From Rhodanobacter thiooxydans (GTDB lineage Bacteria; Pseudomonadota; Gammaproteobacteria; Xanthomonadales; Rhodanobacteraceae), in NCBI RefSeq assembly GCF_021545845.1, contig NZ_CP088923.1, positions 496,001 to 560,000 of the forward strand: a DNA stretch of 64,000 nucleotides, in the 5' to 3' direction. This document shows, piece by piece, positions 41,978 through 44,874 of the stretch. The position numbers and the translations under genes were made by a program. The notes beneath the pieces are model-generated. The model was given only the letters and a program-made list of their open reading frames with translations, had not been told where the DNA came from and did not search any database. Positions within the stretch are counted from its first letter, which is position 1. Every line of letters starts with the position of its first letter.

Positions 41978-42542
41978 GGCAGGCCGACAGCGCCGGATCG
42001 CGGCGCAGTTGCGCCCATTCGAGCTTCAGCCACGGCGTGAAGCGCTCCGGGTCGCGGGCGATCTCGCGATCGAGTGCGGCCGGCGCCACGAAGCGCCAGG
42101 CCTCGACCTCCGTGGCATTGGCGCGCACCGGCTGCGTGCAGGTGCCGGCGTAGACCCAGCACAATTCATGTTCGGCGCCGAGCCCGCGGTAATCGGCCTG
42201 GTATTCGAACTTGAACAGGTAGCGCAGCGGACAGCGCATGCCCAACTCCTGCTGCAGGCGCCGTTCGGTGGCCTGCTCCATGCTTTCGCCCCGGCGCGGG
42301 TGGCTGCAGCAGCTGTTGGCCCAGTAACCGGGCCACAGTCGTTTGCCGCGGCTGCGCTGCTGCAACAGCAGCTCGCCGTGCCCGTTGAAGATGAACAGCG
42401 AGAAGGCGCGATGGCGCTGGCCGCGACCATCGTGGGCGGCCGCCTTGCTGGCGTAGCCGACCGTGCGATCGTCGGCGTCGACCAGGATCAGCTGCTCGGC
42501 TTCGGAGGAGACCGTGGGGTGGCGTAGCGACGCGTCAGCCAA
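41955..42542 (-). CDS. idi: Isopentenyl-diphosphate delta-isomerase, type I
   Basis: A 195-residue Nudix-fold isomerase interconverting IPP and DMAPP. The active-site cysteine region is NSCCSHPRRGE with the Cys before SHP, and the Nudix helix is ATERRLQQELGM. The catalytic Glu region is GAEHELCWVYAG. The start is most likely TTG 42542, overlapping the stop of the HMG-CoA reductase/mevalonate kinase gene, so it is the last gene of the mevalonate operon. The overlap and the matching pathway role support co-transcription. Confidence 0.9.
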   Translation of the reverse strand: MADASLRHPTVSSEAEQLILVDADDRTVGYASKAAAHDGRGQRHRAFSLFIFNGHGELLLQQRSRGKRLWPGYWANSCCSHPRRGESMEQATERRLQQELGMRCPLRYLFKFEYQADYRGLGAEHELCWVYAGTCTQPVRANATEVEAWRFVAPAALDREIARDPERFTPWLKLEWAQLRRDPALSACLSPPAGG

Positions 42543-44874
42543 AGGACACCTCCAGCGCCTGGTAGCCGGCGTCGCGCATCGCCCGGGCCACGCGCGCACC
42601 GCCATCGGGGCACAGCGCAATTACCGCGCCGCCACCACCGCCGCCGGTCAACTTGGCGCCCGCGGCGCCGTGCTCGCGCGCCAGCTGGACCAGTTCCTCG
42701 ATCTCGCGGCTGGACACCTGCAGCGCGTTCAGCTGGCCCTGGCAGATGTTCATCAGTTCGCCGAGCTCGCCCAGGTCGTGCGCTTCCAGCGCGTCGAGCG
42801 CGTGCCGGGTCAGCACGTCGATTTCGTCGAAGATGCGCTCGTACCGCGCCGGATGCTGCAGCCACGCCTGGCGTACGCGCGCCACCATCCGGGCGGTCAG
42901 GCTCTCGCTGCCGCTCAGGCCGATCACCAGTGGCAGCGGCTGTTTCAGCGCGAGCGGGCGGATCGTCGCCGGCTCGCCACGCCGGTACAGCAGCGCCTGG
43001 CCGTGGGTGGCGACCGTATTGTCGATGCCCGAGGGCGTGCCGTGGGCGATCTTCTCGCACTCGAAGGCGAGCGCGCAGACGCTGGCGTCGTCGAGACCCA
43101 GCGCGCAGTGCCGATCGAGTGCGCGGATCACCGCCACCGCCAGCGCCGCCGAGCCGCCCAGGCCCATCGCTCGGGGCATCTCCGGCACCACCTGGATGCG
43201 CAGCGCGCGCCGAGCCAGGCCGAGGCGCTCCAGCAGCAAGGTCAGGGACTGCAGGAAGGAACCCGGCCGCGCCGGCTGCTGCAGTCGCTGCTCGACGCCC
43301 CAGCGCGGGATCAGCAGCGTGGTGCCGTCGCGCGCGTCCTCCACGTGCGCGCGGATCGCCAGCGGCAATGGCGCGGCGATCGCGTGGCGGCCGTACACCA
43401 CGGCGTGTTCGCCGAGCAGGATCACCTTGCCGTGGCCGGCCGCCCATTCCTGCGTGCCGGTCCGCCGGTTGCCGCGGGCCGCTTGCCCCGGCGCCGCCTG
43501 CCCGCCCAGCTCGGCCACGATCAGTTGCGCCTTCCACAGCTTGATTTCGCCATCGGCCAGCAGGCGTTCCACCACCTGATCGAACATCTCCGGCGTGGCG
43601 CCGGCCGCCAGCGCCACGCTGCGCGCGTGCAGGGTCATGTGGCCCTGCTGGATACCGTCGGTGACCAGCGCACGCAGGGCAGAGAAGTTCTGCGCCAGGC
43701 CGACGGCCGCCATCACCTCGGCCAGCTCGCGCGCGCCGGGCGAACCCAGCAGGCGGTGGTTGATCGCCACCATCGGGTTCGCCTGCAGCGAACCGCCCAC
43801 GGTGCCGACCTTGAGCGGCAACTCGATGCTGCCGACCAGGTCGCCCTGCGCGTTGCGCGACCAGCGGGTCAGCGCGCGATAACCCCGGCCGCGCGCGGCA
43901 TAGGCGTGCACCGCCGCCTCCAGTGCGCGCCAGTCGTTGCCGGTGGCCAGCGCCACCGCGTCCACGCCGTTCATGATGCCCTTGTTGTGGGTCGCGGCGC
44001 GGTACGGGTCGACCCGGGCCAGATCGTTGGCCAGGATGATGCCGTCGCGCACCTGCCCGCCATCGTGGCCCTTGCCCGCCAGCGCATGCGTCGGGATCAC
44101 CGCGCTGGCGCGCACCAGCGCGCGGTCGGTCAGGTTGGACAGGATGCGCAGGCAGGTCTTGCCGCCGGTGATCGCCTCCGCCAGTGGGGCCACGCCCTCG
44201 CACATGGTGTTGACCAGGTTGGCGCCCATCGCGTCGCAGGTATCGACCAGCAGGTGCAGCACCACCATGTCGGGGCCGCCGTCCGGCGCGGCGTGGATCA
44301 GTACCTCGACGTCCGCCACGCCGCCGCCGCGTGCGACCATGTTCGGGTGCAGGCTGTTGGCCAGGTTGATGATCTCGTCACGCCGCTGCAGCAAGGCCGT
44401 GCGCGCCTTGCCCGAGTGGGCCAGGCCGGTCAGCTGGACCTGGCCGATCAGCAAGGGGCGGGTGCTCGCGGTGGTGAAGCCGCCGCTGCCGCGCACCAGT
44501 TTGGCGGCGGCGCTCAGCGCGGCCACGATCGACGGCTCCTCGACCACCAGCGGCACCACGTAGTCCTTGCCGTTGATCAGGAAGTTCAGGCCCAGCCCCA
44601 CCGGCAGCCCCATCACGCCGATGACGTTCTCGATCATCTTGTCGGCCTGCGCCGGCTCCAGCCGCTGCGCGCCGCTGGTCAGCGCGCGGTGGTCGGCTTG
44701 CGTCAGCAGCCCGCGGCTGCGCAGCAGCTGCAGCCGCTCGGTCACCGCCAGTCGATGGAAGCCGGGCAGGCGGGCGGGATGGTCGGGCGCACTCGTCGCG
44801 TGATCGCGCGGCGTGTCGTCGGCCTGGGTTGCGGCAGGCGAGTCGGCCTGCCCGGTTGCGGGTAACGAGTCCAC
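42535..44874 (-). CDS. Fused class II HMG-CoA reductase and mevalonate kinase
   Basis: One uninterrupted frame of 779 residues. Residues about 30-455 are a class II ('degradative-type') HMG-CoA reductase: ENVIGVMGLPVGLGLNFLIN, catalytic Glu113 in VEEPSIVAA, Lys298 in HNKGIMNGVDA, Asp314 in ATGNDWRALEA and His416 in GHMTLHARSV. After a short linker (GQAAPGQAARGNRRTGTQ, about 458-475), residues 476-779 are a GHMP mevalonate kinase: AGHGKVILLGEHAVVYG, GLGGSAALAVA, TPSGIDNTVATHG and LTGGGGGG. Acting in order, the two domains would turn HMG-CoA to mevalonate and then to mevalonate 5-phosphate. GTG 44874 follows AGGA at 8-nt spacing. The known bacterial fusion MvaE joins thiolase to reductase; this pairing is different. 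The separate stop or start one would expect between the domains is absent. Confidence 0.92.
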   Translation of the reverse strand: MDSLPATGQADSPAATQADDTPRDHATSAPDHPARLPGFHRLAVTERLQLLRSRGLLTQADHRALTSGAQRLEPAQADKMIENVIGVMGLPVGLGLNFLINGKDYVVPLVVEEPSIVAALSAAAKLVRGSGGFTTASTRPLLIGQVQLTGLAHSGKARTALLQRRDEIINLANSLHPNMVARGGGVADVEVLIHAAPDGGPDMVVLHLLVDTCDAMGANLVNTMCEGVAPLAEAITGGKTCLRILSNLTDRALVRASAVIPTHALAGKGHDGGQVRDGIILANDLARVDPYRAATHNKGIMNGVDAVALATGNDWRALEAAVHAYAARGRGYRALTRWSRNAQGDLVGSIELPLKVGTVGGSLQANPMVAINHRLLGSPGARELAEVMAAVGLAQNFSALRALVTDGIQQGHMTLHARSVALAAGATPEMFDQVVERLLADGEIKLWKAQLIVAELGGQAAPGQAARGNRRTGTQEWAAGHGKVILLGEHAVVYGRHAIAAPLPLAIRAHVEDARDGTTLLIPRWGVEQRLQQPARPGSFLQSLTLLLERLGLARRALRIQVVPEMPRAMGLGGSAALAVAVIRALDRHCALGLDDASVCALAFECEKIAHGTPSGIDNTVATHGQALLYRRGEPATIRPLALKQPLPLVIGLSGSESLTARMVARVRQAWLQHPARYERIFDEIDVLTRHALDALEAHDLGELGELMNICQGQLNALQVSSREIEELVQLAREHGAAGAKLTGGGGGGAVIALCPDGGARVARAMRDAGYQALEVSFG

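Follow-up and report, generated by a model that had tools for sequence, protein, structure and literature searches.

An HMG-CoA reductase fused to mevalonate kinase in a mevalonate operon of Rhodanobacter thiooxydans

The fusion gene and its domains

The window analysed here is a stretch of 64,000 nucleotides from Rhodanobacter thiooxydans (NCBI RefSeq assembly GCF_021545845.1, contig NZ_CP088923.1, positions 496,001 to 560,000; genome G000). On its minus strand, it carries a gene that encodes a class II 3-hydroxy-3-methylglutaryl-coenzyme A (HMG-CoA) reductase (HMGR) and a mevalonate kinase (MK) in one polypeptide; these are two successive enzymes of the mevalonate pathway, a source of isoprenoid precursors. 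A first-pass annotation, made from the letters of the window, had proposed this HMGR:MK fusion. It is borne out by a single uninterrupted frame of 779 amino acids plus stop codon, in which the models of both domains match above their cut-offs. The gene and its parts are as follows (window positions):

42535..44874, minus strand: HMGR:MK fusion gene, GTG start, 779 amino acids
43510..44775, minus strand: class II HMGR domain (residues 34-455), matched by PF00368 and TIGR00532, with Glu113, Lys298, Asp314 and His412
43438..43509, minus strand: linker (residues 456-479); AlphaFold model residues 429-445 (gene residues 459-475) have a predicted local distance difference test (pLDDT) score below 50
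42538..43437, minus strand: MK domain (residues 480-779), recognised by TIGR00549, its GHMP motifs and Foldseek

The GTG start codon at 44874 is preceded eight bases upstream by the sequence AGGA. The frame remains open further in the 5' direction (887 amino acids from another GTG), but this extension overlaps the gene of a phosphomevalonate kinase-like protein (PMK) and is not needed. The HMGR half scores 367 bits with PF00368 and 403 bits with the curated model TIGR00532 (cut-off 260) and possesses the catalytic Glu, Lys, Asp and His of the class II enzymes. The MK half reaches 240 bits with TIGR00549 (cut-off 163), is also matched by PF00288 and PF08544, and contains counterparts of the catalytic Lys, Ser, Glu and Asp of mevalonate kinases. 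Glu113, Lys298 and Asp314 had been assigned correctly in the first-pass annotation; the histidine, however, is His412 (in QGHM) and not His416, the next histidine of the sequence (in LHAR). In an alignment counted by hand, His412 pairs with His381 of Pseudomonas mevalonii HMGR, the catalytic histidine of that enzyme. The three GHMP motifs were found as described, namely GKVILLGEH from residue 482, GLGGSAA from 571 and LTGGGGGG from 742. All eight residues, four in each half, are invariant in 56 of 56 aligned fusions (the window, 47 of the best 120 database matches and eight loci).

The AlphaFold model of the fusion has a mean pLDDT of 84 and a modest predicted template modelling score (pTM) of 0.56, and the linker is predicted to be disordered. 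Since the pTM is 0.56 and the pLDDT of the linker lies below 50, the model does not fix the mutual placement of the two halves. Foldseek relates the HMGR half to P. mevalonii HMGR (PDB 1QAX and others; 49% identity in the Foldseek table), with which it has the fold and the catalytic residues in common. The kinase half is related to the mevalonate kinases of Leishmania major (2HFS) and Methanosarcina mazei (4HAC, 6MDE), which have the same GHMP fold and motifs but are separate proteins. Between conserved anchors, the linker measures 29-50 residues in the 93 of 121 proteins in which both anchors were matched (the best 120 of 7999 database matches and the window).

A stop codon or frameshift at about 43450-43500, close to the linker as now placed (about 43438-43509), had been named as a possible flaw of the sequence. 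Such a frameshift or assembly artefact was rejected. The same fusion with the same neighbours is found in a second genome of the host genus (G115; HMGR 96% and MK 98% identical), and a 95%-identical database protein is fused as well; a sequencing or assembly error is therefore very unlikely as the source of the fusion.

Distribution and origin of the fusion

A search of 5.8 billion proteins, in which 8000 candidates were scored, yielded 7999 matches past an E-value of 1e-3, and all of the best 120 contain both domains. A scan of GTDB species genomes, from which 80 of 590 relatives' loci were kept, gave 47 loci with the fusion and 33 with HMGR as a separate gene. Lokiarchaeal and Bacillaceae matches were tried as further fusions and rejected, being separate adjacent genes. 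The idea that the fusion is unique to the host organism was likewise discarded, as matches from both the database and the genome scan are fused. The database search and phylogeny that the first-pass annotation had called for thus reveal a widespread protein and not a local oddity. The annotation had named, as refuting its proposal, a fusion that is both widespread and already characterised: the former applies, whereas no description of an HMGR:MK fusion was found in a library of open-access papers, and subscription papers may describe one. In the available part of a 2026 review on the diversity of bacterial isoprenoids, MvaE and IspDF are the only fusions named (PMC13001223), and the fusions in the accessible sections of a further paper are engineered ones only (PMC13412983). 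The proteins themselves are public and annotated as HMGR, the fusion being an unremarked variant.

In the host order, 71 of 299 genomes have an HMGR match of any class and 55 the fusion, judged by frame length and match band. A genome was counted as fusion-bearing when a class II match lay in a frame of at least 750 amino acids, plus G178, whose 505-amino-acid frame is unverified; both domains were seen directly in 14 of the genomes so counted, plus the window. Class I and class II HMGRs were told apart by match strength and frame length, and five single HMGRs that were read are class I by eye. Left out before the count were class I HMGRs, a class I HMGR with another kinase (G072:C36), a 436-amino-acid frame (G185), a weak partial match (G013) and, as pieces, G217, G229, G124:C100 and G213:C248. 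Within the host genus, three of the 14 genomes sampled carry the fusion (the host, G115 and G227).

In a tree of 95 HMGR domains, a single branch (Shimodaira-Hasegawa-like approximate likelihood ratio test, SH-aLRT, 99) sets the 62 fused rows apart, and two single HMGRs of Myxococcota are nearest to them. The fused rows span five phyla, namely Pseudomonadota, Actinomycetota (including Cryobacterium isolates), Planctomycetota, Acidobacteriota and Calditrichota; metagenome-assembled genomes (MAGs) account for many of the records. The host and G115 form one group and G227 falls with Dyella and Nevskia, which suggests that the fusion of G227 was acquired separately and makes horizontal transfer likely. 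The kinase tree, built from 75 domains, is less clear-cut. It requires seven changes of the fused label, because four 'stand-alone' database kinases sit among the fused ones and because the branches of three rows are longer than 3. One of the four (P0211), like P0147 and P0159 outside the tree, begins inside the HMGR C-terminus, so that these records resemble cut or shifted genes; the other three (P0134, P0173 and P0238) could not be settled. The HMGR:MK fusion probably arose once, a claim which is based on the HMGR tree and not on the kinase tree.

The operon

The fusion is the third of four genes in the order MVD-PMK-HMGR:MK-IDI, and the same genes are found in the same order in G115. The other three genes of the operon are:

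45922..46914, minus strand: diphosphomevalonate decarboxylase (MVD), first gene; TIGR01240 285 bits (cut-off 171), start inferred
44903..45922, minus strand: PMK; TIGR01220 109.5 bits, below the cut-off of 165.7
41955..42542, minus strand: type 1 isopentenyl-diphosphate isomerase (IDI); TIGR02150 150.7 bits (cut-off 105.8), NF002995 173 bits (cut-off 127)

The MVD stop codon and the PMK ATG overlap (TGATG), and IDI probably starts at a TTG within the 3' end of HMGR:MK, which would make these two genes overlap as well. The operon has DapF (named by eye from the sequence) as its neighbour on one side, and genes for a GNAT acetyltransferase and a RimK-like protein lie beyond its other end. In 44 of 62 fused loci, the stretch examined includes MVD, PMK and IDI; the remaining 18 are without one or two of them there, some being situated at contig ends. 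Elsewhere in the window, at about 21500-31600, a gene run resembles, by eye only, a ketosynthase/acyl-carrier cluster of the aryl polyene or xanthomonadin-like kind.

Cofactor helix and reaction direction

NCBI and NCBIfam name the HMGR family of the fusion 'degradative'. P. mevalonii HMGR is catabolic. It is also a stand-alone, NADH-dependent enzyme (PMC13370337, in part), whereas the HMGR described here is joined to a kinase. According to the available part of the same paper, the cofactor helix of class II HMGRs reads Dx(V/L)xxxL in NADH-using and (H/Y)xSxxxR in NADPH-using enzymes (PMC13370337). The helix has Asp in P. mevalonii HMGR and His in the protein of the window. His in first and Arg in last position were found in 121 of 121 proteins and, in an aligned count, in 60 of 62 fused loci (first residue His in 61, Asn in one), and no NADH-type helix with Asp in first position occurs in either set. 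As the helix is NADPH-like at two of the three named positions, the name 'degradative' looks wrong; NADPH use and a biosynthetic direction would be the better reading of the residues, but are not proven.

Source of HMG-CoA

No HMG-CoA synthase (HMGS) is recognisable in the host genome, which is rated 100% complete and consists of two contigs: PF01154 gives no match, and the best TIGR01835 match has an E-value of only 4.4e-6, against 2.7e-33 or better in the genomes of the order counted as having HMGS (TIGR01835 match of at least 110 bits). The canonical mevalonate route from acetyl-CoA therefore lacks this enzyme in recognisable form here. Matches at the level of 4.4e-6 are common in most genomes of the order, including those without HMGR, and are probably FabH. 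A divergent family of HMGS proteins of about 500 amino acids scores 151 bits with TIGR01835 (cut-off 360) and lies near the fusion operon in some loci (L116, 8410-9915, plus strand). The 501-amino-acid HMGS of this kind from a family relative has no match in the host, G115 or G227 in a search of 45 genomes of the genus. Among the 55 fusion-bearing genomes of the order, judged by best match, 32 have HMGS and 23 are without a recognisable one, 15 of the latter being at least 90% complete. Because DXR and IspH are found in the host genome, the methylerythritol phosphate (MEP) pathway is probably present.

Leucine breakdown is a known source of HMG-CoA without HMGS. The host genome encodes an HMG-CoA lyase (452 bits, above the cut-off), beside which lie a crotonase-family hydratase and a biotin-carboxylase subunit (L136); a full-length carboxyltransferase is encoded elsewhere. 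In the 23 fusion-bearing genomes without HMGS, the lyase match is 1e-86 or better in 21, 2.2e-49 in G223 and absent from G168. The use of leucine carbon for sterols via HMG-CoA is established in T. brucei (PMC5993337, in part). The leucine-route genes of the host are consistent with a supply of HMG-CoA from this source, and the indication is weak.

Two further observations concern these genes. In the presumed leucine cluster of the host, an IS110 transposase gene (L136, 11412-12449, plus strand) separates the hydratase gene from that of the biotin carboxylase; by eye, the two are adjacent without a transposase in G115 (L145) and G227 (L146). A second HMG-CoA lyase-like gene (337 bits) is located beside a family III CoA-transferase (L137, about 8700-10786, minus strand), and a second lyase above the cut-off occurs in three of 45 genomes of the host genus.

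Product of the operon

Hopanoid genes surround the operon in G227, in G020 and in two Dyella-like genomes. Those matched by NCBIfam models are HpnI, J, K, L, H and B for G227 and, for G020, HpnH, B and N; HpnB lies under the cut-off in both. In 63 fused loci (the window and L001 being the same place), BLAST at 1e-15 detected hopanoid-like genes in 12, a farnesyl-diphosphate-synthase-like gene in 11 and HMGS in 14 of the stretches examined; some of the HpnN matches in this search are only 31-37% identical. A squalene-hopene cyclase above the cut-off was found in 20 of the 299 genomes of the order, 16 of which bear the fusion (Fisher p 6e-10, a value that ignores genome relatedness). Hopanoid supply is thus a likely role of the operon in some relatives.

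No squalene-hopene cyclase was found in 39 of the 55 fusion-bearing genomes, including the host and G115, and the squalene/phytoene synthase family reaches only 19.9 bits in the host (cut-off 26). Because neither enzyme is present above its cut-off, hopanoid supply was rejected as the role in the host genome and kept for the relatives; the product of the host operon is probably general isopentenyl diphosphate (IPP) and dimethylallyl diphosphate (DMAPP).

Proposed mechanism and alternative explanations

We propose, as the somewhat favoured explanation, that HMGR:MK is a bifunctional enzyme which works in the forward direction with NADPH, arose once and then spread horizontally, and in the host is fed by leucine-derived HMG-CoA, giving the cell a second supply of IPP. 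In its N-terminal half, the class II reductase would convert HMG-CoA to mevalonate, with NADPH as the most likely cofactor; the kinase tethered to it would then phosphorylate mevalonate with ATP, and PMK, MVD and IDI of the same operon would carry the product on to IPP and DMAPP. Because HMGR catalyses a reversible step, a kinase kept nearby at 1:1 by the flexible linker would trap free mevalonate and thereby pull HMGR forward, which makes a rigid tunnel unnecessary. The fusion itself would have originated when adjacent operon genes lost the stop codon between them, probably once, before spreading horizontally. Since no HMGS is recognisable in the host genome, the operon most likely draws its HMG-CoA from leucine breakdown and would act beside the MEP pathway. 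Directly visible in the sequence are the fusion, the catalytic residues, the operon, the want of a recognisable HMGS and the DXR and IspH genes, whereas the two activities, the use of NADPH, the direction, the trapping of mevalonate and the leucine source are deduced. A more far-reaching version, in which a bacterial mevalonate pathway has leucine-derived HMG-CoA, and not acetyl-CoA, as its sole entry and HMGR:MK diverts that intermediate from HMG-CoA lyase to isoprenoids, is put forward tentatively.

Several points weigh against this proposal. The trees are quick searches without bootstrap, and the PMK-like protein of the operon stays under the cut-off of its model. In the cofactor helix, the third position holds Ser in none of the 121 proteins (K 67, N 39, R 8, H 4, Q 3) and in only one of the 62 loci, and two loci deviate at the first or last position (L039, Asn first; L033, Phe last). 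As to the leucine route, only the lyase reached an NCBIfam cut-off, the hydratase and carboxylase subunits being assigned by place and family. Moreover, the lyase is above its cut-off in 282 of the 299 genomes of the order and does not discriminate; its presence, being near-universal, was dropped as support for the route.

The divergent HMGS-like family also counts against the proposal, since its score of 151 bits against a cut-off of 360 indicates that known models miss some HMGS. The fusion might accordingly run forward on HMG-CoA made from acetyl-CoA by an unrecognised, non-orthologous HMGS, and the recognisable HMGS in 32 of 55 fusion-bearing genomes and near 14 of 63 fused loci would be in keeping with this. 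However, the divergent family has no match in the host, G115 or G227, the host genome is rated complete, in two contigs, and the HMGS counted in other members of the order match TIGR01835 at 2.7e-33 or better, so that we regard an unrecognised synthase in the host as unlikely.

Less probable still is a role in salvage and catabolism, in which mevalonate taken up by the cell is directed to IPP by the kinase, while the reductase oxidises any surplus to HMG-CoA for cleavage by the lyase. The absence of a recognisable HMGS, the presence of a lyase and the family name 'degradative' would agree with such a role, as would the fact that the closest solved structures are the P. mevalonii and D. acidovorans HMGRs, which use or prefer NADH (PMC13370337, in part). 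Against this stand the cofactor helix, which is never of the NADH type in the 121 proteins or 62 loci, the presence of PMK, MVD and IDI in the operon, the adjoining genes, which include no lyase and no evident transporter, and the location of the operon amid hopanoid genes in some relatives. That just one half is active, with the other retained for a part in folding or dimerisation, is very improbable, as nothing supports it directly, the catalytic residues of both halves are invariant, and PF00368 finds no second reductase gene in the host genome (a search for the reductase only, in which a second kinase was not looked for).

Other pathway fusions and the reason for fusing

P0071 is a triple PMK:HMGR:MK protein of 1131 amino acids, encoded on a 220-kb MAG contig; used as a query, its PMK part gave 172 matches. 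Among the 119 besides P0071 in the best 120, 90 consist of a PMK-like domain and a class II HMGR with no kinase seen behind it, one is a 659-amino-acid partial relative of the triple (P0242), seven are MVD:PMK, and others are Bifidobacterium proteins in which PMK is linked to type 2 IDI; the last two kinds are found, in part, among P0243-P0247 and P0250-P0259. The PMK-like:HMGR proteins have about 755 amino acids and make up part of P0248-P0360 (e.g., P0312, P0282, P0306); several bear Myxococcota names, and where NCBI gives the protein a name, it is degradative HMGR. By BLAST, their N-terminal kinase is nearer to the PMK of the window than to its MK in 91 of 91 cases (P0242 included), and its motif is GEYAV in 86 of 91 and GEHAV in none. 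The NCBIfam PMK and MK models score about alike on this kinase, both below their cut-offs, and do not decide between the two: the MK model is slightly ahead for P0282, P0292, P0330, P0318 and P0295, and the PMK model for P0312, P0306, P0294, P0265 and P0248.

Both kinds of fusion combine a class II HMGR with a GHMP kinase, but the PMK-like one has the kinase at the N-terminus and an HMGR of a different branch. In a tree that also includes 32 sampled PMK-like:HMGR rows, the latter form a separate group (SH-aLRT 94), and P0071 and P0242 fall inside HMGR:MK. HMGR thus acquired a kinase partner at least twice, on different branches, and in one further event PMK was added to HMGR:MK. MvaE of enterococci is likewise a natural mevalonate-pathway HMGR fusion (PMC10070635, in part); its partner, however, is the upstream acetoacetyl-CoA thiolase at the N-terminus, whereas in HMGR:MK it is the downstream kinase at the C-terminus.

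In the fusions found, the domains keep the operon order MVD-PMK-HMGR-MK. The first-pass annotation had suggested that the fusion channels mevalonate and locks two consecutive steps at 1:1. The fixed ratio follows from the fusion itself, but the anatomy of the protein lends no support to rigid channelling, without excluding it: the linker is 29-50 residues long and predicted to be disordered, the pTM is modest, and the triple protein joins PMK and HMGR. As these two do not catalyse consecutive steps, channelling is unlikely as the general reason for fusing; stop loss between coupled genes together with a fixed stoichiometry would do.

Some further candidates were set aside, namely the MVD+MK proteins P0122 and P0124, which resemble chimeric records, and the MK:IDI fusion P0195, whose isomerase looks broken and which was not counted. 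A different arrangement was seen in G072 (L127, 6829-9237, minus strand), where a class I HMGR and, by eye and motifs, an aminoglycoside-phosphotransferase-type kinase-like domain share one 803-amino-acid frame, which adjoins a phosphoenolpyruvate-synthase-like frame; this genome also carries a class II HMGR:MK.

Implications

HMGR:MK represents a natural design in which a reversible and often rate-limiting step is coupled to an irreversible one, which is useful for isoprenoid engineering. Automatic annotation seems to hide kinases inside 'degradative' reductases, and pathways can look incomplete as a result. In the available part of the paper on nannosterol, Nannocystis pusilla is described as having no obvious PMK and no HMGR homologue (PMC10152446). 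PMK and HMGR seem to be fused in the Nannocystaceae protein P0306, and a fusion of this kind could explain the gap in Nannocystis pusilla. If HMG-CoA is indeed derived from leucine in the genomes without HMGS, amino-acid degradation would feed isoprenoid synthesis in free-living bacteria.

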